Shown here: positions 1,581 through 35,713 of the stretch, piece after piece
Numbering within the stretch: the stretch's first letter is position 1
Layout: each line of letters begins with the position of its first letter
Source of the DNA: Bacteroidota bacterium
Lineage (GTDB): Bacteria; Bacteroidota; Ignavibacteria; Palsa-1295
Direction: 5' to 3'
Length of the DNA stretch: 64,000 nucleotides
NCBI GenBank assembly: GCA_030706745.1
Contig: JAUZNX010000016.1
Coordinates: 1-64,000, forward strand
Notes under the pieces: model-generated
Databases searched by the model: none
What the model saw: the letters and a program-made list of their open reading frames with translations, nothing else
Told to the model about the DNA's origin: nothing
Translations under genes and position numbers: made by a program

Positions 1581-1685
1581 GTATTTCGTGCGGTTCTAAG
1601 CTGGCAATCGAACTCGCCGCAAGATGCCGAAATTGCACTGGATTGGCGGGTGTCCCGAGGAAGCCTATTTTGTTGGACGAATTAT

Positions 1686-1714
1686 TTGTAACCGTAGGCA
1701 CTCTCGAGCGTTTT
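1686..1714 (+). promoter_or_regulatory. ECF-type promoter candidate upstream of sigma gene 1
   Basis: TTGTAACCGTAGG is followed by CGTTTT, giving GTAACC - 15 bases - CGTTTT, the form of an ECF sigma promoter (-35 with AAC, -10 with CGT). A near-identical -35 block (TTGTAACGGAAGG) precedes the second sigma gene of this window, suggesting autoregulation or a shared regulon. This is a motif reading only. Confidence 0.4.
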
Positions 1715-2514: not shown

Positions 2515-3819
2515 ATGGCAATAAATGAAGAACGGATTTTGGATTTCCTCGATGGCCGGCTGAACTCCGGTCAGGAAGAGGAATTATTGCACACGCTGGC
2601 CGTCTCGCCCGAACGGCGGGGGCTGCTGCGCGCCCACATGCGGCTCCGTGAGTTGACAAGTAACCTCGCGAGCGCCGAGCGCTTGAGCGTCCCGAAACAC
2701 GTGACCAGTCAGCTTTTTCGGACGTTGCAGACGATGGGACTCTCGGCCACCGCCAGCACCGATCAGATTCTGACGAATGCGCCCCAACTCGCAAAGCTGG
2801 CACTTGCCGAAAAGACCGCTGAGACGTTCGGGACATCCGCGATTGCCGTTGGCACCGGCTGGCAGTTGAGCTTTGCCTCGATTGCCGCAGCCACGCTCCT
2901 TTCGTTCACACTTGGCGCTGGCGCCTACCATGTCTTCGCGCGAAGCCTTGGATTGACCAGCGTGCCAGAAGTCCGGACCATCGTTCAACTGGTGCCTCAG
3001 CCAGCGACACCATCGCCGGCCAATCTCCAAAGTAAGGCGACTTCTCCCATGCATTCCGACGAAGCGCCTCTCTCGCTCGATCACACGACCAACATCAGAG
3101 CCTCAGCACCGGCTGCGCCAACGGTGTCAACTCTGCCAGGTTCGTTCGAGGGCGGACCTTCGATCGCATCCGCTTCTCCACTCGATAGACCAATCCTGCC
3201 AGAGAAGTCCGATCAATTCACGAAGCTTGCCAGCCAGCATTTGATGGCTCGAGCAATCGAGACACCGCTCGAAAGCGAGAAAGGAACCATCAGCTTCCGA
3301 TATGGCACCGGTGTGATGCCGACCAACAATATCAGCTCGATGAGCTCTCTTTCGGAAGTGAAATTTCGTTGGACATTATGGAATTACGTCGTTGGCCAGG
3401 CATCACTGGGTCAACTTCAGAGCTTCGTCCACGAAGCCAAGTTGAATCCCGACCCGAGAAAGCAAGGCGAAATCACCACGGAGGAAGTGGCGAACAGCAC
3501 CTTCGTGATTGGCGCGGAAGCCGGCTTAACTTTGGACCCACTGCATTTGCCATTCGAAGCGACCGGAGGATTCCTCGTCGATGGGGCAGGCACCCCATAC
3601 TTGCGTACCGGCATCTTCGCACACTATGAGCCATTCGAGGCTCTGAGTATCATCGCCGGTATCGAGGGGGTCTGGTACACGCATTCGATTCAGAAGTCCA
3701 TCGATCAGAAGGAAATGATGTATCAGGACTTCTCTCCTCATCTAAAGCCAGGATCGGCGCAGGGCAACGAAACCGCCGGGTTCTTTGGACCATCGCTTGA
3801 ATTCGGCTGGCATTTCTGA
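2515..3819 (+). CDS. membrane anti-sigma-like protein with outer-membrane-barrel-like C-terminus (Dma-like)
   Basis: A 434-residue protein in four parts. (1) A cytoplasmic helical N-terminus (1-75) with ILDFLDGRLNSGQEEELLH, a form common in non-zinc anti-sigma domains. (2) One membrane helix at about 117-140. (3) A roughly 110-residue Pro/Ser/Thr/Ala-rich linker (150-255). (4) A beta-rich domain (257-434) with alternating hydrophobic/polar strands, Gly and aromatic residues, ending in GWHF; a terminal Phe is typical of outer-membrane barrels. It follows the sigma gene directly. The design suggests one chain crossing both membranes and holding the sigma factor, as described for dual membrane-spanning anti-sigma (Dma) proteins of Bacteroides. 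The ATG is chosen for its GGAG ribosome site. The barrel and sigma binding are inferred. Confidence 0.6.
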   Translation: MAINEERILDFLDGRLNSGQEEELLHTLAVSPERRGLLRAHMRLRELTSNLASAERLSVPKHVTSQLFRTLQTMGLSATASTDQILTNAPQLAKLALAEKTAETFGTSAIAVGTGWQLSFASIAAATLLSFTLGAGAYHVFARSLGLTSVPEVRTIVQLVPQPATPSPANLQSKATSPMHSDEAPLSLDHTTNIRASAPAAPTVSTLPGSFEGGPSIASASPLDRPILPEKSDQFTKLASQHLMARAIETPLESEKGTISFRYGTGVMPTNNISSMSSLSEVKFRWTLWNYVVGQASLGQLQSFVHEAKLNPDPRKQGEITTEEVANSTFVIGAEAGLTLDPLHLPFEATGGFLVDGAGTPYLRTGIFAHYEPFEALSIIAGIEGVWYTHSIQKSIDQKEMMYQDFSPHLKPGSAQGNETAGFFGPSLEFGWHF

Positions 3820-3925: not shown

Positions 3926-4573
3926 TTGAGAATCGATTCACGGGAACATCATGCGGCCACCCATTCTATACCCTCTTCCCCCGACTCTGACAAAAGCAGA
4001 GTAGAGCTGCCGAGCATTAAGATTCGGGTTCGCGGCCTGGGTGAAGGTGAAAATCCGGTCGATTTCTCTGTGGACGCCGCTGTTCTGGATTATGCGCCAT
4101 TCGAAGACACCGTTCGAATCCACGGATCATTAGTCAGGGCTGGCGAACAAATACACCTGAAAGCGACGGCCTCGGCAGAAGGATCGTTCGAATGTACCCG
4201 ATGCACCGAGCCATTTCGTCGCATAATCGACGCCCCAATCGCACTTGAATTCGTGCCTCCTCGACTGGAGCGGGACCCCAACGATCCTAACGTCCATGTG
4301 TATGATGCGGCAATCAATGCATATCTGGACATCACCGAAGATGTTCGCGATGCGCTGGCATTGGCCATCCCAATGAAACATCTCTGCCGGCCGGACTGCA
4401 AAGGGCTTTGCCCTGTCTGTGGAAAGGACCTCAACAAGGGTCCCTGTGGCCATTTGGAGCAGAGCGAGGAGGAAATCAAGTTTCCGGCACTCAAAAGTTT
4501 AGGTGAGCGTTTGCGTGCCGAAGAAGGGAATGCCGGGCCTTCCGAGCACGGGTTGTCCGACCGCGGACAGTAA
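3926..4573 (+). CDS. yceD: YceD/DUF177 family protein
   Basis: A 215-residue member of the YceD (DUF177) family, linked in other bacteria to 23S rRNA accumulation and regularly placed just before rpmF. The family signature is near the C-terminus: CRPDCKGLCPVCGKDLN, with paired cysteines likely to bind metal, plus an earlier CTRC pair at about residue 91. A TTG start is chosen because a very strong GGGGGAGG ribosome site sits 6 bases upstream and no ATG lies nearby. It probably opens the long operon that runs through rpmF, plsX and the fab genes. Confidence 0.85.
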   Translation: MRIDSREHHAATHSIPSSPDSDKSRVELPSIKIRVRGLGEGENPVDFSVDAAVLDYAPFEDTVRIHGSLVRAGEQIHLKATASAEGSFECTRCTEPFRRIIDAPIALEFVPPRLERDPNDPNVHVYDAAINAYLDITEDVRDALALAIPMKHLCRPDCKGLCPVCGKDLNKGPCGHLEQSEEEIKFPALKSLGERLRAEEGNAGPSEHGLSDRGQ

Positions 4574-4609
4574 CGTTTTTCGTCCCTTTTCGATTTTTAG
4601 AGCGACATC

Positions 4610-4795
4610 ATGCCAAATCCAACACATAGGAATTCACGGACCCGCCGCGATAAACGCCGGACCCATTACAAGCTTTCGAAGCCATCGTTTGGGAACTGCC
4701 CGAACTGCGGTTCGCCGAAACTACAACATACCGCGTGCGCGAGCTGCGGCTTTTACCGCGGTCGTTCGGTCTTCCAGCCGAAGGTCCAAAGCTGA
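4610..4795 (+). CDS. rpmF: 50S ribosomal protein L32
   Basis: A 61-residue basic ribosomal protein with the L32 hallmark start MPNPTHRNSRTRRDKRR and a zinc-ribbon-type CPNCG...CASCG pair (about residues 30-47). Length and order (yceD-rpmF-plsX-fabH) are those of the conserved bacterial lipid and ribosome cluster. The zinc-binding version (two CxxC) is present. Confidence 0.97.
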   Translation: MPNPTHRNSRTRRDKRRTHYKLSKPSFGNCPNCGSPKLQHTACASCGFYRGRSVFQPKVQS

Positions 4796-4808
4796 TCAAC
4801 GCCTCGGG

Positions 4809-4862
4809 AATGATGAATGATGGATGATGAAGCGACCAGTTCATCATTCGCCATTCATCATT
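4809..4862. repeat. word-repeat hairpin (GATGAAT-type) between rpmF and plsX
   Basis: Left arm 4809-4831 is made of GATGAAT/GATGGAT-like words in tandem; right arm 4840-4862 is its near reverse complement (about 19 of 23 positions), around an 8-base loop. It ends 13 bases before the plsX ATG, where no ribosome site is visible, so it could affect plsX translation or processing. It is one of five such elements in the window. Confidence 0.7.
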
Positions 4863-4875
4863 TATCATTTTGTCG

Positions 4876-5931
4876 ATGACTGCCGCGCAAGCGCTTGTCG
4901 CCACTTCAGACCAACCTCTTACGATCGCACTCGATGCGATGGGTGGCGATTTTTCGCCGGCCAATGAAGTTGGTGGTGCGCTCCAGGCCGTGCGCGAACG
5001 AAAGGGTCGGCTCAAAGTCCTTCTCGTTGGTGTCCGTGAAGAGATCGAGCTGGAATTGAAGCGTGCCAATGCGATGGATGAACCCGGCATTGAGCTCGTT
5101 GCAGCTTCTGAAGTAATCGGGATGGAGGATGAGCCGGTTGCAGCGCTGCGGCAAAAGCGTGATTCTTCCATCGTCATTGGCTTCGATCTCGTAAAACAAG
5201 GACGCGCTTCAGCGTTTGTCAGTGCCGGTAATACAGGTGCAGTCATGAGCGGCGCGACGCTGCTGTTGGGTCGGATTCCAGGCATCAGCCGCCCGACGAT
5301 TGGCTCCATGTTCCCACGACCCGATGGCGGCTTCACACTCCTCTTCGATGTTGGTGCAACAGTGGATTCCAAAGCAATCCATCTTCGCGAGTATGCCATC
5401 ATGGGGTCGATCTATTCCGAGCAGATTCTGGGAATAAAGAATCCGCGCGTGGGGCTTCTGAGTGTTGGTGAAGAGCGATCGAAAGGCAACGAACTTGTTT
5501 TCGGCACAACGGAGCTGCTCGAAAAGTCGCACGTGAATTTTGCGGGAAATGTCGAAGGTCGCGATGTGTTCAAATCAACGGTCGATGTGATTGTTTGCGA
5601 CGGATTCGTCGGCAACATCGTATTGAAGCTCGCCGAAAGTATGTTAACCGTCATGAAGACGATCATCCGTAACTATGCCTCACGCGGGATCTGGCAAAAG
5701 CTGAAGGCTGCCATTGCCGCCTCGGTGCTGCGTGAGTCGCTGAAGGACTTCGATTATCAGGAGCACGGCGGCGTGCCGTTGCTTGGTGTGCGTGGTGTGA
5801 CCATCATCGGCCATGGCCGGTCCACTCCGAAGGCGCTCAAAAACATGATATTCAAGGCAGAAGAAATGGTCGAAAAGAAGATCGTCGAGAAAATCGCCCA
5901 TGCGGTCGAGGTCGAAACCGTACCAGCATAA
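4876..5931 (+). CDS. plsX: phosphate acyltransferase PlsX
   Basis: Makes acyl-phosphate from acyl-ACP for phosphatidic acid synthesis (PlsX/PlsY route). About 351 residues, the family's usual length. The N-terminal IALDAMGGDFSP is the classic PlsX signature; SAGNTGAVMSGA (about residues 115-126) and VCDGFVGNIVLKLAES (about 236-251) are further family motifs, and the HGRSTPKALKNMI block lies near the end. Its position before fabH is the standard order. ATG is preferred to a TTG two codons earlier. No ribosome site is seen; the start lies just after a word-repeat hairpin. Confidence 0.96.
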   Translation: MTAAQALVATSDQPLTIALDAMGGDFSPANEVGGALQAVRERKGRLKVLLVGVREEIELELKRANAMDEPGIELVAASEVIGMEDEPVAALRQKRDSSIVIGFDLVKQGRASAFVSAGNTGAVMSGATLLLGRIPGISRPTIGSMFPRPDGGFTLLFDVGATVDSKAIHLREYAIMGSIYSEQILGIKNPRVGLLSVGEERSKGNELVFGTTELLEKSHVNFAGNVEGRDVFKSTVDVIVCDGFVGNIVLKLAESMLTVMKTIIRNYASRGIWQKLKAAIAASVLRESLKDFDYQEHGGVPLLGVRGVTIIGHGRSTPKALKNMIFKAEEMVEKKIVEKIAHAVEVETVPA

Positions 5932-5942
5932 TACAGAACGAA

Positions 5943-6938
5943 TTGTCAGCTTACAAACTCCACGCAGCCATTACGTCCGTCGGTCATTACGTACCACCGG
6001 ACGTTCTCGATAACGCCTTCTTCGAATCGTACCTCGATACATCCGATGAATGGATTCGCACGCGGACCGGCATTAAAGAGCGGCGCATCCTGAAACAAGG
6101 CGCGACCAGCGACATGGCCGTACTCGCCGCGAAACAGGCGCTCGAACGACGTGGCTGGACACCCGATGATGTCGAGCTGATCATCTGCTGTACCGTGACA
6201 CCGGACATGATGTTCCCATCCACGGCGTGTCTCATTCAGGAGAAGCTCGGCGCGAAGAACTGCTGGGGCTACGATCTGGTGGCTGCGTGTTCGTCATTCC
6301 TGTTCGGCGTTGAGACCGCTGCGCAATTCGTGACATCAGGACGCTACAAACGTGTGCTGCTGATCGGCGCGGACAAGATGAGTGCGATCGCAGATTATCA
6401 GGACCGCAACACCTGCGTTCTCTTCGGCGATGGCGCCGGAGCGATCACGCTCGAGCCTTCGGAAGAAGAGATTGGAATTCTTGATTCCTATTTGCGCGTG
6501 GATGGAAGTGGCGCGCCATTCCTTCACATGAAGGCTGGCGGCAGCCTCCGCCCGGCATCACACGAGACGGTCGAGAACCGTTGGCACTACGTTTATCAGG
6601 AGGGCAAGCAGGTTTTCAAGCGCGCTGTCGTGGACATGGCCGAATCCTCAGCCCGTGTGGTCGAGCGTAATGGAATGACAGGCAAGGATATCTCCTTCCT
6701 TGTCCCTCATCAGGCAAATCTTCGCATCATCGATGCCGCCCGCGAGCGCATGGGGCTCTCGCCAGAGCAGGTGATGATTAATATCCAAAAGTACGGCAAT
6801 ACGACCAGCGCGACAATCCCGATATGTCTTAGCGAGTGGTGGGCCGATGGCAAACTCAAGAAAGGTGACAATATTGTCCTTTCCAGTTTTGGCGCGGGGT
6901 ACACGTGGGGAGCAATTCTCGTCCGCTGGGCGTACTAA
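5943..6938 (+). CDS. fabH: beta-ketoacyl-ACP synthase III
   Basis: Condenses acetyl-CoA (or a branched starter) with malonyl-ACP to begin fatty acid synthesis. The 331-residue length fits. The catalytic triad is visible: Cys116 in AACSSF, His256 in VPHQANLRI and Asn286 in YGNTTSATIP; SDEWIRTRTGIKER at 34-47 is also typical. It uses a TTG start 11 bases after plsX; no closer ATG precedes the conserved N-terminus. Confidence 0.96.
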   Translation: MSAYKLHAAITSVGHYVPPDVLDNAFFESYLDTSDEWIRTRTGIKERRILKQGATSDMAVLAAKQALERRGWTPDDVELIICCTVTPDMMFPSTACLIQEKLGAKNCWGYDLVAACSSFLFGVETAAQFVTSGRYKRVLLIGADKMSAIADYQDRNTCVLFGDGAGAITLEPSEEEIGILDSYLRVDGSGAPFLHMKAGGSLRPASHETVENRWHYVYQEGKQVFKRAVVDMAESSARVVERNGMTGKDISFLVPHQANLRIIDAARERMGLSPEQVMINIQKYGNTTSATIPICLSEWWADGKLKKGDNIVLSSFGAGYTWGAILVRWAY

Positions 6939-6950
6939 CCGATTCGCACA

Positions 6951-7862
6951 ATGATTGCTCACATTTTTCCCGGACAAGGCTCGCAATATCCCGGCATGGT
7001 GAAGGAATTCGCCGAGGCCTTCCCCGCTGCACGTGCCCGACTCCAGGAAGCTGATGATCTGTTGCACATCAATCTTTCCCGAGCGATGCTCGAAGGACCC
7101 GAAGACGTTCTTCGGCAAACAGATTACACCCAACCGGCCATCTTTCTGCATTCGATCATCGCGCTCGAGTTCGATGAAGAGCGCGCGCCGGCGCAGGCAA
7201 TGGCCGGTCACTCGTTGGGTGAGTATACGGCGCTCTGTGCTGCCGGCGGACTCGAATTTCGCGATGCGCTTTCGCTGGTCCATTTGCGCGGCCAACTCAT
7301 GGCCGAAGCCGGACGCCGCAAATCTGGCACGATGGCTGCGATCATTGGAATGGATGCCAATAAGTTGACTGCAATTTGTGAAACCGTCGAAAGCGAACTG
7401 GAGACGGTCGTTCGCCCAGCGAACTTCAATTCGCCGGGCCAAATTGTCATCTCAGGGACTGGGCAAGGCGTTCAAGAAGTGATGCGCCGCGCGAAAGCAG
7501 AAGGCGTTCGAATCGCCAAAGAGCTTTCGGTTTCGGGCGCATTCCACTCGCCACTTATGCAGTATGCCGCGGATGGACTCCAAGAGGCGCTTGCTTCGAC
7601 GGACATTACATCTCCGGATGTGCCGGTCTTCAGCAATGTGAGCGCCGAGCCAGTCGAGGATGCAGAAGATATCCGGAGACTTCTCATCGAGCAATTGACA
7701 GCGCCGGTCTTGTGGGAGCAGTCCGTTAAGAATATGTACGACTTCGGCATTCGCGAGTTTGTCGAGTACGGTCCGGGCAAAGTACTGCAAGGGCTTATCA
7801 CTCGCACGCTGACAAACGTGAAAGTGACGGGTGTTGAAAAACCAAAGGCGGTGGCCGCATGA
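6951..7862 (+). CDS. fabD: malonyl-CoA:ACP transacylase
   Basis: Transfers malonyl from CoA to ACP. The 303 residues show IFPGQGSQYPGM at the N-terminus, the nucleophile Ser88 in GHSLGEYTAL, the QPAIFLHS loop, and the catalytic His in GAFHSPLM at about residue 195. It follows fabH by 12 bases, and its stop overlaps the next start (ATGA), indicating translational coupling to the DUF3109-like gene. Confidence 0.96.
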   Translation: MIAHIFPGQGSQYPGMVKEFAEAFPAARARLQEADDLLHINLSRAMLEGPEDVLRQTDYTQPAIFLHSIIALEFDEERAPAQAMAGHSLGEYTALCAAGGLEFRDALSLVHLRGQLMAEAGRRKSGTMAAIIGMDANKLTAICETVESELETVVRPANFNSPGQIVISGTGQGVQEVMRRAKAEGVRIAKELSVSGAFHSPLMQYAADGLQEALASTDITSPDVPVFSNVSAEPVEDAEDIRRLLIEQLTAPVLWEQSVKNMYDFGIREFVEYGPGKVLQGLITRTLTNVKVTGVEKPKAVAA

Positions 7863-8575
7863 GTCAGGAAGCAAATCAAAACGAACCAATGCCAGAGAGC
7901 GACGAGATTCCTGAGAGCCGGATTGCACCGATCACTGTCGGTGGCTTGCGCGTGGACGAGATCATCTTCACGCACGGCTTTGTCGATTACTGCAACATCT
8001 CGCTCTGCGGTGGCGGATGCTGTCATTCCGGCGTCTATGCCGATCTGGGCGAGCGCGATCAAATCCTCGCGCACGCGACCGAGATCGCGGCAGCGATGGA
8101 CGAGACCCAGGACACCGACACCGACACCTGGTTCGATGGCGAGATCATCGACGATCCCGATTTCCCTTCCGGTCAGGCCGAAGGAACGGACGTACACGAG
8201 CGCGATGGTGGTATTTCCGGATTTACCGAAGGCTGCGTGTTCTTGGACAAGCGGCACTTCTGCTCGATCCAGGTTGCTGCGGCCAATGCCGGACTTCACC
8301 GCTGGGCCTGGAAACCACGATACTGCATCCTCTTCCCTGTTACGGTCGTCGAAGGGACGATAACGTATGACGATTCACACTCGGAGGATTTGCATCACTG
8401 CGGGCCTGCCGGTGCAGGAAAGTATGTGCACAGCGTATATGAGTCCATGCGCGAAGAGTTGACCCATTTTCTGGGCAAGGATGAATTCGCGAAGCTGGAA
8501 ACCTATTATCAATCGAACCGCGAGCGCTTTGAAGCCGCACGCTTAAGCGATAGTCTTATTCAAATCACTGTATGA
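7859..8575 (+). CDS. cysteine-rich DUF3109-like protein
   Basis: A 238-residue soluble protein of unknown function. Cysteine clusters suggest a metal or Fe-S site: CNISLCGGGCC at about residues 44-54, then CVFLDKRHFC (about 124-133), RYCILFP (about 151-157) and HHCGP near 181. This pattern resembles the DUF3109/YkgJ-type cysteine-cluster proteins. It is embedded between fabD and fabG with ATGA overlaps on both sides, so its synthesis is tied to the fatty-acid genes. An acidic segment (about 80-110) separates the first two clusters. The family call is from memory of the cysteine spacing. Confidence 0.6.
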   Translation: MSQEANQNEPMPESDEIPESRIAPITVGGLRVDEIIFTHGFVDYCNISLCGGGCCHSGVYADLGERDQILAHATEIAAAMDETQDTDTDTWFDGEIIDDPDFPSGQAEGTDVHERDGGISGFTEGCVFLDKRHFCSIQVAAANAGLHRWAWKPRYCILFPVTVVEGTITYDDSHSEDLHHCGPAGAGKYVHSVYESMREELTHFLGKDEFAKLETYYQSNRERFEAARLSDSLIQITV

Positions 8576-28701: not shown

Positions 28702-30423
28702 CTAATTCTCGACTACTAATCGCGCCATACGGGTACACGGCTCCTGTTCGAGAACAAGATAATATTCACCGGAGGCAAGCCGTGGCAGGTCAAGGCTGAA
28801 GCTCTCGAGGCTCCCCGTTGTGGCGCGTGTTTCGTGAAAGACCTCGCGGCCAAGCGCGTCATAGAGATGCAGCTTTACCGATCCCGAGCATGCCGATTCC
28901 CATGTCACCACACTGTGTAGCGAGCATGGATTCGGCGCAAGACCAATCGAATCGCCACTCATGATGGCCGGAGCAACCGAAGCCCATCGAGGGTTGAGCT
29001 TCACCGGAATTTTTCGCGTGCCGTGAATGATGCCCAGCGAGCCCGTGTCAGGTGCCCAAGTTGGTCCGGGGAGAGCACCCGTAGCAAACAGGTCGCCCAT
29101 GTTGTCGCCATCCGCTGTTATGCTATCAAAGGAATTCCCCCAGTTGACGATCATGTCTGGCCTTGAATCGGCGGCCTGCCCCATCACATAAAATAAGTTG
29201 CCACCTTGGTTGAAATCAAGCAAGGAGCTATAGACCACGTTGTTTCCTGTACCGGTCAAATCGCCCATGTCATCCATTGTGCCAAAGAAGTCCATATTGG
29301 ATTGTGGGCTTCTAACACAAAAGTCGGTGTCCTTCGCAAAGAGTCTGTGCGAACCGAAATTCGGGCCGCCCTTCCAGATGTTTGCACTGTACTGGGCATA
29401 GGACTGGTTGTCATCACTCCGTATGAACGCCCCGCAAAAATCAACCGAGCTATCGCCTGGCGCCTTCGGGAGTATATGGTCCGCAGTCAAATACCAGGCA
29501 TCGGCATCGTTCCGGATAAACATCTCCGGGTTTTGCCAAGGTGCGAACAAAGTGTCATACAAGATCGCCTGAGCGAATCGTGAGAGATTAAATGGCGTAT
29601 CGTTACGGTAATAGAGTAACACACCCTTCGCCGTCAAACCAGTATTAACGAATGCGAGGTAGTCCTTTCGGCCGGTTCCCCGAAAATCTGCGCACACGGC
29701 CCCTCGACTGGCAGTTGACTTCATGTCATCGGAATAATAGGCAAGATCATCGTTCCAAATTGTGTCTCTGCCCATATGCGTAGTTGGTTTCGCCTTATAG
29801 AGCAAACAGAAATTGCTATCAGGGTGGACGCCTCTCGGCCACCATGTATAGGTAGAGACGCCTATAAAGTCATCTAGTGAATCACTCGTGAGATGTGCAA
29901 TGTATGGAGTAGCGAGGTCCAAAGTACTACCGCCAAACGCTGTGTCTTTCTCTATGGTGGTATCATGGTTCCAGTACCTCAAATTCATTACAAGTAAGCC
30001 GGTTCGATTGCTGTCGTATGATCCGTTCGAATCTGCCCAATAGATGTAGTTGAGTCCTCCGTTGAGGACCAGCATATCATAGATTTTGGTCGAGTGAAAG
30101 TGTCCGAAAAGGGGAGAAGAGATAGAAGGCAGGTTGAGCTTTGTCCCCCGGTTCCGCAGGTCGAAACCTGGACCGCTTCGTACCATATAGATAGCGTTCG
30201 GATTGTCCGGATAGCCCCTGACTAGTAATCGATTATAACCATCGGGTCCGGGCACGGATCCGATAACTCCAATCCCCACTTGGTTTGTTTGAGCCTTTTG
30301 AAGAATGATCGTGTCGAACTCCCCCGGCGTGCCGGGCTGCGGCCGGTATTGGGCGCTGGCTTTCCCTCCTACAAAAAGGAGCGCCATCAAGAACAGCAAC
30401 AGCTTCATCATTTGATGACTCAT
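28702..30423 (-). CDS. secreted FG-GAP/VCBS-like protein with T9SS sorting domain
   Basis: 573 residues. Signal peptide MKLLLFLMALLFVGGKASAQ follows MSHQM; ATGs at 30423, 30411 and 30408 are all possible starts. The body (about 50-480) is beta-propeller-like, with VCBS/FG-GAP-type phrases such as ADFRGTGRKDYLAFVN, MGDLTGTGNNVVYSS and NMGDLFATG. The last 75 residues (IGLAPNPCSLHSVVTW ... MARLVVEN) form a T9SS type A sorting domain. Function beyond export is not recognisable. It is flanked by the two copies of the batA tail sequence. Confidence 0.78.
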   Translation of the reverse strand: MSHQMMKLLLFLMALLFVGGKASAQYRPQPGTPGEFDTIILQKAQTNQVGIGVIGSVPGPDGYNRLLVRGYPDNPNAIYMVRSGPGFDLRNRGTKLNLPSISSPLFGHFHSTKIYDMLVLNGGLNYIYWADSNGSYDSNRTGLLVMNLRYWNHDTTIEKDTAFGGSTLDLATPYIAHLTSDSLDDFIGVSTYTWWPRGVHPDSNFCLLYKAKPTTHMGRDTIWNDDLAYYSDDMKSTASRGAVCADFRGTGRKDYLAFVNTGLTAKGVLLYYRNDTPFNLSRFAQAILYDTLFAPWQNPEMFIRNDADAWYLTADHILPKAPGDSSVDFCGAFIRSDDNQSYAQYSANIWKGGPNFGSHRLFAKDTDFCVRSPQSNMDFFGTMDDMGDLTGTGNNVVYSSLLDFNQGGNLFYVMGQAADSRPDMIVNWGNSFDSITADGDNMGDLFATGALPGPTWAPDTGSLGIIHGTRKIPVKLNPRWASVAPAIMSGDSIGLAPNPCSLHSVVTWESACSGSVKLHLYDALGREVFHETRATTGSLESFSLDLPRLASGEYYLVLEQEPCTRMARLVVEN

Positions 30424-30505
30424 GAAACCCAAATTAGTAACAACATCTGGCTGCAAATGTACGGGGAAAGATTTATGACCTGTTCGAAAGAGGACCACCC
30501 CCCAG

Positions 30506-32912: not shown

Positions 32913-33599
32913 TTAATTCGTTTTGCTTTGGAATTTCAGGTCCATCATTTCATTCCCGGGGCGCTCGATATGGGAGTAGATGGTCCCGATGCCGCGAGCA
33001 AACCAGGTCGTGCCGGTCGTACCGGCAGCGCCCTTGTAATCCACGACGACCACATCATCGTACGACTTGCCATTGACAGTCGCCGATACACCGTACTTGG
33101 CAACAGTTGCGGTGACGGACTCTCCTTGTGAGGTGAAGGTCCATGTCGCGCCAGAGGAGAGCGGCGCTTTGAGTTCGACCCACGAATCGGTATACTGGCC
33201 GTACATCTCAATGCCGAGACCAACCGCTTCGGTATCGGAAAGCGCATAGAACCATGGACGTGGCTGGCCAGCGGTGGCATAGGACCACAGGCAAGTCCAG
33301 ACCGGCATCGATTGATAAGTGGTGTTCTGGTCCGATCCTTTCATGTCCATGGTTAGCATATCGCTGGCGGGCAGGTATGGATCACGCGAGGCGAAATTGT
33401 AGTGATACACCATATTCGGCGCTTCGAGAAGAATGTAGTAGTTCTTCACGTTCTGCTCCGCCTTCGGCGCCTGCGGGTTCGGGTCGGCAATCTGACTGCA
33501 TCCGGAAAAAGCTCCGAGCATAGTCAGCATTCCGACGATGCCAGTCAGCACTGACATCCGGACTCGGTCACTCTGTAGTAATAATCTCTTGACACTCAT
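32913..33599 (-). CDS. lipoprotein of unknown function
   Basis: 228 residues. GGGAGC ribosome site before the ATG. The signal ends in the lipobox LGAFSGCSQ, with Cys34 as the lipidated residue. The mature part is beta-rich (ATWTFTSQGESVTATVAKYG, GKSYDDVVVVDYKG, FARGIGTIYSHIE), reminiscent of the beta-sandwich repeats of many Bacteroidota surface lipoproteins. No catalytic motif. It may be transcribed with the BatA gene, though a strong hairpin separates them. Confidence 0.75.
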   Translation of the reverse strand: MSVKRLLLQSDRVRMSVLTGIVGMLTMLGAFSGCSQIADPNPQAPKAEQNVKNYYILLEAPNMVYHYNFASRDPYLPASDMLTMDMKGSDQNTTYQSMPVWTCLWSYATAGQPRPWFYALSDTEAVGLGIEMYGQYTDSWVELKAPLSSGATWTFTSQGESVTATVAKYGVSATVNGKSYDDVVVVDYKGAAGTTGTTWFARGIGTIYSHIERPGNEMMDLKFQSKTN

Positions 33600-33651
33600 A
33601 ATATTGCTCCCACGCATAGAGACACTATTTTGTCTCTGCAGTTACACGTCA

Positions 33652-34881
33652 TTAGAACCGGTACGACAGCCCATACTCGATGCGGCTGAGCAGGGTATTG
33701 TGGATATCGGGGCCGTCATAAATGGCGGGCCCGGATTGTGACGAAAGCAACTCTTGCTTTGTCTGCCCATTTTCATGGCGTCGCGTCAGCGACCAGGTTG
33801 CGCCGGCAAGGAAATGCTCCGCGATCGGGATGCGCACTCCGGCGCTCACGTCCATGAAATTCCCTCCAGAGAACAAGCCAGCGCCCACGCTGCCATCGAT
33901 CAGGAACAGACCCCGATCGACCGACAAACGCCGCGTATAATACACTTCATATGTCGTCAACCAGGTCGGCTCCATCGATGCTGCAAACTCATTGAATCCG
34001 GTACTGGCAGTTTGATCAACCGTGAGCGAACCGAACATGCCACGTTCGATTCGGACGCCGGCCAAATCGTGCTCATCCAGCGCATACGCCGCGTGCAGCA
34101 CCCAATCCTGAAGCGGACCGGCCGCAAAGGCATTTGCCGGAGTGATGGACTGCGTTGACGTCTCGATACCGATTTCATACCGCGACATCGCATCCAATGG
34201 CGCGATCGCAAGATCGGCAATGCTATGTGCGATAATGCCCGGCGGCTGTATATGCTCGGCCTGTGTTTCGCGCGGCATTGCCGTATAAGCAATCTCCCGG
34301 TCCTTTATATCCGAACCGCTCGCGGGCATCACATCATAGGACGGGGCGACCACCGGGATACCCACGGATGAGTGCTGGCTCGAACGTACCAGATTCTTTG
34401 AAATATTCTTCACGGCAAGCGTAGCAGCTTCCGGCGTCACGGACGTCGCATTCGCATTCTGAACTGGACTGCCTGTCGCAGTTGCAACGGAAGAAGGATT
34501 CTGATAGGCACTTGTCTGAACGGCCGCCGGGACGACGATGGACTCTCGATCGAACGATTCCGCGAGCCCAATCGAGATGATGCCAAGAATAGCCGCGGCC
34601 ATTGCCCCCCGGCGAATTGACCAGAACCCAGCGGGCGTTTTCCGACGCTCCTCCCGTTGAAGGGCCGCGATTTCGGCGAAAACAGCAGCTTCGACATTCG
34701 GTGAAACGGATACGTTGCGTGCAGCCCGTGTCGCCATGCGGCGCATCGTCTCATGCTGGGTGAAGATCTCGCGAATCTCCGGACTGATGGAGACGCGGTG
34801 CATCAGCTCGGCGCTTTGGCTGTCGTTCAACCGGCCATCGAAATAAGCGATGATCGTGTCTTCGATTTGATAGACTTTCAT
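33652..34881 (-). CDS. membrane anti-sigma-like protein with outer-membrane-barrel-like C-terminus (Dma-like), second copy
   Basis: 409 residues with the same layout as the protein at 2.5 kb. The cytoplasmic N-terminus (1-80) has IIAYFDGRLNDSQSAELMH, matching its counterpart at DGRLN and the following Gln/Glu-Leu-His. One membrane helix at about 92-107 follows a basic stretch; then a roughly 120-residue Ser/Thr/Ala/Pro-rich linker; then a beta-rich domain (about 235-409) with strands such as LHAAYALDEHDLAGVRIE and VGAGLFSGGNFMDVSAG, ending EYGLSYRF with terminal Phe. GAGAAG precedes the ATG. It starts 13 bases after the sigma gene. Signal sensing at the outer membrane is inferred. Confidence 0.6.
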   Translation of the reverse strand: MKVYQIEDTIIAYFDGRLNDSQSAELMHRVSISPEIREIFTQHETMRRMATRAARNVSVSPNVEAAVFAEIAALQREERRKTPAGFWSIRRGAMAAAILGIISIGLAESFDRESIVVPAAVQTSAYQNPSSVATATGSPVQNANATSVTPEAATLAVKNISKNLVRSSQHSSVGIPVVAPSYDVMPASGSDIKDREIAYTAMPRETQAEHIQPPGIIAHSIADLAIAPLDAMSRYEIGIETSTQSITPANAFAAGPLQDWVLHAAYALDEHDLAGVRIERGMFGSLTVDQTASTGFNEFAASMEPTWLTTYEVYYTRRLSVDRGLFLIDGSVGAGLFSGGNFMDVSAGVRIPIAEHFLAGATWSLTRRHENGQTKQELLSSQSGPAIYDGPDIHNTLLSRIEYGLSYRF

Positions 34882-34894
34882 CTTCTCGTCCGTT

Positions 34895-35638
34895 CTAATT
34901 GCTAAGTCCTAAGTTCGGTAAGTCATAATCTTGGACTTCTGACACCTGTTCGTCCTGAGCTTCTGATACCAGTTCATCATTCGCCGGCTCTGCGTCCGAG
35001 CGTCTCGGACTTCTTCGCCGCACGCTGCCTCGGCTTGCCTGCGATCCATAATACGGCGCGAGCAACTGGCGGAGTTGCTTTTTGGCACGCGTGATTCGCA
35101 CCTTGACATTCATTTCCGTCGTGCCAGTCAACTCGGCGATCTGATCGTAATCGTATCCCTCGAATTCTCGCATGAGGAATGCTTCGCGGTAAATCGGCGC
35201 AATGCGCGCGAGCATCGTCTTAAGCATATCGTCAGCCTGGAGCGTCTCGGCGGGATCGCCCGGCGAGTCCAGAGTCATCGGCGCATTCTCGCCATCGGCA
35301 AATGTGCTCGTCGATACAAACTCCGGCGTGAATTTCGATTGACGAAGCGAATTCAGGCAAACCGAACGTGTAATCAGCAGCAGCCAACTCTTAAGGGCTT
35401 TGGCCTCGCGAAGTTGGGCGCGCCGCGAATACACGCGACTAAAGACTTCCTGAAACGCATCTTCGGCGAGCGTCTGCGAGTGCATATAATAGACGCAGTA
35501 GCTCATCACGCGTTGGCGATACCGGGAATAGACAAACTTGAATCCCGCAAGGGCTTCGCGCTCACCGCCTCGAATGAAGGCGTCAATAAGCGCGGATTCC
35601 TCTTCCGAATGGACGATCGGTTCGTTACGCGACGACAT
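34895..35638 (-). CDS. ECF-type RNA polymerase sigma factor (sigma-70 family), second copy
   Basis: 247 residues. Region 2 at about 15-105 (AEDAFQEVFSRVYSRRAQLR, LKSWLLLITRSVCLNSLR) and region 4 at about 140-195 (IAPIYREAFLMREFEG, YDQIAELTGTTEMNVKVRITRAKKQL). After region 4 comes a roughly 45-residue tail: a basic Arg/Ser part, then an acidic near-repeat (LVSEAQDEQVSEVQD), unusual for an ECF factor. It is coupled to the downstream anti-sigma-like gene. The upstream TTGTAACGGAAGG box resembles that of the first sigma gene. Confidence 0.88.
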   Translation of the reverse strand: MSSRNEPIVHSEEESALIDAFIRGGEREALAGFKFVYSRYRQRVMSYCVYYMHSQTLAEDAFQEVFSRVYSRRAQLREAKALKSWLLLITRSVCLNSLRQSKFTPEFVSTSTFADGENAPMTLDSPGDPAETLQADDMLKTMLARIAPIYREAFLMREFEGYDYDQIAELTGTTEMNVKVRITRAKKQLRQLLAPYYGSQASRGSVRRRSPRRSDAEPANDELVSEAQDEQVSEVQDYDLPNLGLSN

Positions 35639-35683: not shown

Positions 35684-35713
35684 AGGACACAGAAGAAAGT
35701 CCTTCCGTTACAA
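35684..35713 (-). promoter_or_regulatory. ECF-type promoter candidate upstream of sigma gene 2
   Basis: On the minus strand: TTGTAACGGAAGG, then about 16 bases after GTAACG, TGTCCT. Eleven of 13 bases of the -35 block match the block before sigma gene 1 (TTGTAACCGTAGG). It lies about 46 bases from the start codon. Motif reading only. Confidence 0.4.

Follow-up and report, generated by a model that had tools for sequence, protein, structure and literature searches.

On the minus strand of the 64,000-nucleotide stretch of Kapaibacteria DNA analysed here (the window), a gene for an ECF sigma factor is followed by one for a protein that appears to combine an anti-sigma-like domain, a membrane helix, and a barrel-like end. 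A comparable pair lies on the plus strand of the same window. The dual-membrane anti-sigma idea has already been published for Bacteroides (PMC13088901), and the locus raises the question of whether the minus-strand pair (pair 2) is a further copy of one signaling design shared with the plus-strand pair (pair 1), and what it would sense and transcribe. The initial annotation listed for pair 2 an ECF sigma, a 13-base gap, a domain with YFDGRLN, a helix, a linker, and a YRF end, and all of these are present (Table 1). That pair 2 repeats every element of pair 1 is incorrect, as pair 1 has a gap of 36 bases rather than 13 (with the ATG at 2515 taken as its likely start) and ends in WHF rather than YRF. 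The span first assigned to the locus, 33652–35638, was also too short: the conserved unit of pair 2 consists of an upstream promoter, the sigma gene, the Dma-like gene, and a downstream lipoprotein gene.

Table 1. Features of the two pairs in the window, and the putative promoter boxes of each orthologue group (pair 2 belongs to group A, pair 1 to group B).
Feature	Position	Strand	Evidence
Putative pair 1 promoter, TTTGTAAC-N16-CGTTT	1685–1713	+	6/6 orthologous loci; 8 exact sites in own genome vs. 0 in control
ECF sigma factor of pair 1, 249 aa	1729–2478	+	
Pair 1 Dma-like protein, 434 aa, end FGWHF; no lipoprotein after it	2515–3819	+	N-domain profile
Pair 2 lipoprotein gene, 234 aa from first ATG	32913–33617	−	Invariant lipobox Cys40; after Dma-like gene in 10/10 orthologous loci
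Second group-A-type site, TGTAAC-N15-GTGTC, between Dma-like stop and lipoprotein gene	33621–33646	−	One of 4 exact matches to a looser pattern in the whole genome
Pair 2 Dma-like putative anti-sigma protein, 409 aa	33652–34881	−	N-domain homology within genome and sister genomes
Its C-terminal outer-membrane beta-barrel-like domain, residues about 220–409, end EYGLSYRF	33655–34224	−	Beta-signal-like end, predicted strands, weak model
Its predicted disordered periplasmic linker, residues about 111–219	34225–34551	−	44% S/T/P/A, no predicted structure
Its predicted inner-membrane helix, residues about 92–110	34552–34608	−	Hydropathy maximum 1.74
Its N-terminal anti-sigma-like domain, residues 1–80, no cysteine	34642–34881	−	Relatives match zf-HC2, RseA_N, NCBIfam antisigma
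Pair 2 ECF sigma factor, 247 aa	34895–35638	−	Sigma70_r2, Sigma70_r4_2, TIGR02937 above cut-off; orthologue group one clade, support 100
Putative pair 2 promoter, ECF-type, TTGTAAC-N16-GTGTC (group A type), upstream of sigma	35686–35713	−	10/10 orthologous loci
Group A box, TTGTAAC-N16-GTGTC			Upstream of sigma, 10/10
Group B box, TTTGTAACCG-N13-GCGTTT			Upstream of sigma, 6/6
Group B2 box, TGTAACTTT...GCGTTT			Upstream of sigma, 4/4
Group C box, TGTAACT...GTGTT			Upstream of sigma, 8/8
Group D box, GCAACTT...GTGTT			Upstream of sigma, 12/12
Group E box, TGTGACTCTT...GTGTTA			Upstream of sigma, 3/3
Group F box, TGTTAyAAACCGTTA...GGTTACAT			Upstream of sigma, 5/7

The sigma factor of pair 2 carries sigma-70 regions 2 and 4 but lacks region 3, as expected of an ECF sigma (Pfam Sigma70_r2, 3.6e-13; Sigma70_r4_2, 5.8e-17), and matches nothing else of weight. 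A sigma gene on the same strand lies upstream of nearly every copy of the Dma-like family. Among the NCBIfam subfamilies TIGR02985 gave the top score, yet stayed below its cut-off. Together with a sigma that adjoins a membrane anti-sigma, this could point to ordinary FecI-FecR-FecA cell-surface signaling through a separate TonB-dependent receptor, a reading that we consider very improbable because the conserved neighborhood holds no such receptor, FecR was not matched, and the barrel lies within the anti-sigma protein itself.

In the Dma-like protein of pair 2, YFDGRLN occupies residues 13–19 of an N-domain of ~80 residues, for which the family consensus is IxAYLDGxL...AELLHxLSVSPExR. Searched alone, this protein matches no anti-sigma family in Pfam or NCBIfam, and it is the matches of its relatives that suggest an anti-sigma domain. 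The zf-HC2 family is matched by 19 of 25 family N-domains at E ≤ 1 (best 9e-6), RseA_N at best at 1.6e-5, and NCBIfam antisigma by 8 of 25 members (best 1.5e-6), with NF052375 and PRK13920 also among the anti-sigma families found; the zf-HC2/RseA-type matches are many and weak even at their best values, and all fall in relatives of the window copy. Since the N-domain has no cysteine, it would be a zinc-less anti-sigma domain. The helix that follows has an Arg-rich N-terminal side, with five K/R before it and one after. The linker measures about 108–110 residues here, is rich in Ser, Thr, Pro, and Ala, and ranges from 108 to 186 residues across the six barrel-bearing copies of the genome; if extended, it would be long enough to cross the periplasm. 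Among orthologues it is the fastest diverging part (20–35% identity), compared to 33–66% for the barrel and 33–81% for the N-domain. Among paralogues, domain identities from pairwise global alignment with free ends are at shuffle level.

The C-terminal domain is likely an outer-membrane barrel, although the assignment falls short of proof. The barrel-like sequence covers about 190 residues. A C-terminal beta-signal pattern, Gxx[hydrophobic]x[hydrophobic], occurs in 39 of 64 family members and, among more distant members, in 16 of 19, compared to 3 of 254 other open reading frames, and alternating hydrophobicity exceeds that of shuffles in five of the six genome copies; for the window's pair 2 copy taken alone it does not (p = 0.11). 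One family member matches OMP_b-brl at 0.0037, and the pair 2 domain itself has no significant Pfam match. The AlphaFold model of the pair 2 protein (pLDDT 41.8) has helices at the N-terminus, disorder in the middle, and seven strands. Membrane barrels make up 48 of the 50 best VIA-align matches of this weak model (best Z 9.1), and Foldseek gave no significant E-value for it (best 0.045). Our two AlphaFold models (mean pLDDT 41.8 and 47.6, first runs with five rows) are both weak, and neither was used alone as the basis for any conclusion. The absence of a significant Pfam match and the weak model would also suit a periplasmic beta-domain in a single-membrane anti-sigma factor. We think this improbable, given the beta-signal statistics, the alternation in sister copies, and structure matches dominated by barrels.

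How widespread is the design? The genome comprises 3.81 Mb in 30 contigs. With the pair 2 protein as the query, the N-domain led to five other places in it (E 6e-8 to 3e-5), a resemblance beyond chance, and an N-domain profile found ten places, six with long open frames (418–530 aa) and four of 222–394 aa. Six sigma-linked copies with a barrel-like end are present in this genome, and sister genomes of the same genus hold 4–6 copies each, counted as matches to the window protein, so the multi-member family that had been proposed from the two pairs is real. Further matches occur in other families of the class, and among named relatives Candidatus Kapaibacterium sp. Chersky.7_45 (58% across the whole protein) and MAGs assigned to Ignavibacteriae/Bacteroidetes come closest; five named loci were recovered with a tighter alignment as the profile. 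NCBI taxonomy places Kapaibacterium in the phylum Bacteroidota, class Eximiradiia. The viral contigs searched held no relative. In a sample of 296 genomes from the phylum, all matches found outside the class were short (open frames <300 aa), and the combination of a barrel with this N-domain is therefore confined to the window's class in our sample.

Profile-profile comparison shows that the main groups A to F have related N-domains (probability 94–99.6), and further sigma-linked copies exist both in this genome and in its relatives. Neither of the two outcomes that were named beforehand as refuting the initial annotation (unrelated N-domains, or no more copies in related genomes) was therefore observed, and the idea that the N-terminal signature is kept stands. 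So does the claim that the barrels differ strongly: the profiles of groups A and B match with a probability of 0.29 only, compared to 80–85 for A with C and D, and the barrel domains form three main sequence clusters. The initial annotation explained this as different outer-membrane inputs plugged into one signaling chassis. The variety holds, as the barrels differ and the N-domain also occurs with a BNR propeller or with nothing. Four other paralogues in this genome carry the N-domain without a barrel (L048:4241-5317, L046:3822-4481, L049:3935-4669, L047:3695-4525); one of them has a BNR/YCF48 propeller, and two precede OmpA-domain proteins, one with a detectable barrel. Recent plugging-in of new barrels is not supported, however. 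On the N-domain tree the three barrel clusters need two changes, the minimum possible, so that barrels have long been co-inherited with their N-domains, and recent barrel swapping was dropped as an explanation. The sigma tree and the N-domain tree both recover the orthologue groups, with group C appearing only as a grade in the sigma tree.

The conserved boxes upstream of the sigma genes, which by sequence we take to act as promoters, differ between groups (Table 1). In group A the best group dyad occurs in 8 of 10 loci compared to a shuffle maximum of 2, and across groups A to D the best within-group dyads are found in 8/10 to 11/11 loci (shuffle maxima 2–3). Because the boxes are distinct for each orthologue group, separate self-regulated circuits are implied. 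The strict group A pattern occurs once in the window's own genome, at the pair 2 operon, and eight times in 13 genomes, six of these at the pair 2 operon (in six genomes), while the control gave one. This narrow regulon suggests that the sigma mainly makes more of its own module, in which case its output may be nothing other than the lipoprotein and the barrel. The second A-type site, between the Dma-like and lipoprotein genes, is not conserved in orthologues. Two further A-type sites (L197, L198) were rejected as targets, as their level equals that of the reversed-pattern control. In one relative (G008, L206), a second strict A-type promoter adjoins another lipoprotein gene (VGCKSSTGP...). 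A group-A-type promoter, TGTAAC-N16-GTGTC, also stands ahead of the sigma gene of a non-barrel pair (L046:5267-5293), hinting at cross-talk.

The group B pattern reaches more widely. It has eight sites in the window's own genome (1685–1713 of the window and L236–L242 included) and none in the reversed control, and 35 sites in six genomes of the genus compared to one in the control. Most of the genes behind these sites encode exported proteins that carry BNR or RCC1 propellers and type IX sorting tails, and the predicted regulon of pair 1 is one of surface proteins or T9SS cargo.

In group A, the lipoprotein gene follows the Dma-like gene in all ten loci while the wider neighborhood varies. Its true start may be the ATG at 33599, which has GGGAG ahead of it. 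Two genes downstream of the module, the window encodes a protein whose type IX sorting tail is weak (28702–30498). Most paralogues (groups D, C, E, F, and B2) are also followed by a related lipoprotein, and profile probabilities are 92–99 for most pairs of groups (A-D, A-B2, D-EF, C-EF, EF-B2, D-B2; controls <2). Those of groups E and F (L051:6926-8473, L053:6523-8016) are ~500 aa long and contain a large middle part that is missing from the 200-aa forms. Pfam and PDB sequence searches with the lipoprotein gave no match and Foldseek nothing significant; its weak model reaches a structure Z of up to 4.8, with YmcC-like and LolA3 chains among the tied weak matches. In the RpoE envelope stress module, RseB shields RseA, and the order rpoE-rseA-rseB is that of sigma, anti-sigma, and envelope protein. 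By analogy, the downstream lipoprotein could be the true sensor, shielding the linker or the barrel until its removal or displacement starts the response. That the lipoproteins form one family, are linked to the module in every group A locus, and stand in the same gene order would agree with such a switch, which we nevertheless find unlikely, since a Z below 5 is too low to establish a likeness to RseB/LolA and group B keeps its promoter and barrel without any lipoprotein in 6/6 loci. In all six group B loci the module is followed by yceD instead, and in the window (3926–8572) by yceD, a PlsX-like gene, fabH, and a gene for a fabD-like acyltransferase.

Gene order, domains, homology, co-inheritance, and conserved promoters are all seen by sequence, and pair 2 is probably a three-gene, self-regulated module of ECF sigma, dual-membrane anti-sigma, and envelope lipoprotein. 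We infer the sequestration of sigma, the insertion of the barrel, the crossing of the periplasm, the signal, and the release of sigma as follows. The N-terminal helical domain of the Dma-like protein would keep its cognate sigma at the inner membrane, while the disordered linker would span the periplasm and the barrel would sit in the outer membrane and serve there as a sensor or anchor. In response to an outer-membrane change (a ligand, a surface state, or failed barrel assembly), the protein would release the sigma, which would then transcribe its own operon from TTGTAAC-N16-GTGTC, such that sigma, anti-sigma, and lipoprotein rise together. For the lipoprotein, a part as co-sensor or feedback partner is probable, and perhaps it sets sigma release jointly with the outer-membrane end; against such a role in the module, pair 1 has none. 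Six such modules, with separate promoters, lie in this one genome.

Failed assembly could, on the other hand, be the whole signal. DegS in E. coli recognizes the C-terminal ends of outer-membrane proteins, and the barrel might serve not as a surface sensor but as a sample substrate of BAM, whose unassembled YRF-type end would trigger a DegS-like cleavage in cis and free the sigma. Aromatic-x-Phe C-termini (YRF, YKF, WHF, FHF, FRF), which resemble the ends that DegS recognizes, are common in the family, some of its N-domains are RseA-like, and some non-barrel paralogues adjoin OmpA-type barrel genes. The same end is, however, the BAM beta-signal of any barrel, and six different barrel types that have been kept for so long, and whose promoters are separate, are easier to reconcile with separate inputs than with one shared assembly readout. 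We therefore hold a pure assembly monitor to be rather doubtful.

A broader view, which we put forward tentatively as one possible account, is that Kapaibacteria joined an RseA/zf-HC2-type domain to a barrel and so arrived at a dual-membrane anti-sigma factor of their own, separately from the Dma proteins of Bacteroidia. Multiplication would then have given about six circuits, insulated by private promoters, each barrel with its own lipoprotein; some barrels would report on how they are assembled or on the state of the surface, and type IX secretion cargo would be governed by at least one circuit (pair 1). If true, evolution has linked the outer membrane to transcription through one polypeptide on at least two occasions, and the layout is general and not an oddity of Bacteroides. 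With six paralogous modules and separate, readable promoters, the pairing of sigmas with barrels and the genes that each barrel governs become questions that can be asked by sequence, and the pair 1 regulon, with its many type IX secretion tails, would be a concrete predicted output for such a system.

The closest known systems are the Dma1-3 and Das1-2 systems of Bacteroides thetaiotaomicron (B. theta), in which an anti-sigma region, a membrane helix, a long disordered tether, and a C-terminal beta-barrel follow one another (PMC13088901). Dma proteins there control expression of the operon that encodes them and have effects on vesicles and glycan genes, and loss of dma2 raises its own operon (PMC13088901); they have been reported only in Bacteroidota, paired with ECF21 sigmas (PMC13088901). 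The order of parts, the adjoining ECF sigma, several systems per genome, and extra operon genes are all shared with our locus. The N-domains differ: here it is of the DGxL...SPE type with about 90 residues before the helix, whereas that of Bacteroidia Dma-like proteins is a short 'VP..LW..I'. We compared five Bacteroidia loci picked by architecture (four fused, one split) rather than B. theta Dma1-3 themselves. With these five, hhalign gave a probability of 0.5 between the two N-domain types and hence no sign of a relation, our N-domain HMM found no match, and in the sigma tree our sigma group stands apart from their sigmas (support 100, long branches). A search of Bacteroidia with one Bacteroidia Dma-like protein found no further relatives beyond the barrel. 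Among these loci (L190–L193, L187), L187 looks split, with anti-sigma and barrel as separate genes. Since the layout agrees while the N-domain and sigma branch differ from these architecture-chosen comparators, we call the protein of pair 2 Dma-like by function and of a distinct lineage by sequence. Nor is the lipoprotein a DUF4943 protein, which the B. theta dma2 operon encodes in third place and which the window's own genome lacks. With RpoE-RseA-RseB, pair 2 shares a sigma, a putative single-pass anti-sigma whose N-domain may be akin to that of RseA, a third gene for an envelope protein, and its own promoter; here, the anti-sigma is fused to a barrel and the third gene encodes a lipoprotein. 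As in FecI-FecR-FecA, an outer-membrane barrel would inform an ECF sigma through an inner-membrane anti-sigma, but through one protein instead of two, with neither a TonB receptor nor a FecR domain. Compared to Bacteroides, what differs in this Kapaibacteria genome is the inner-membrane part, the private promoter, and the companion lipoprotein.
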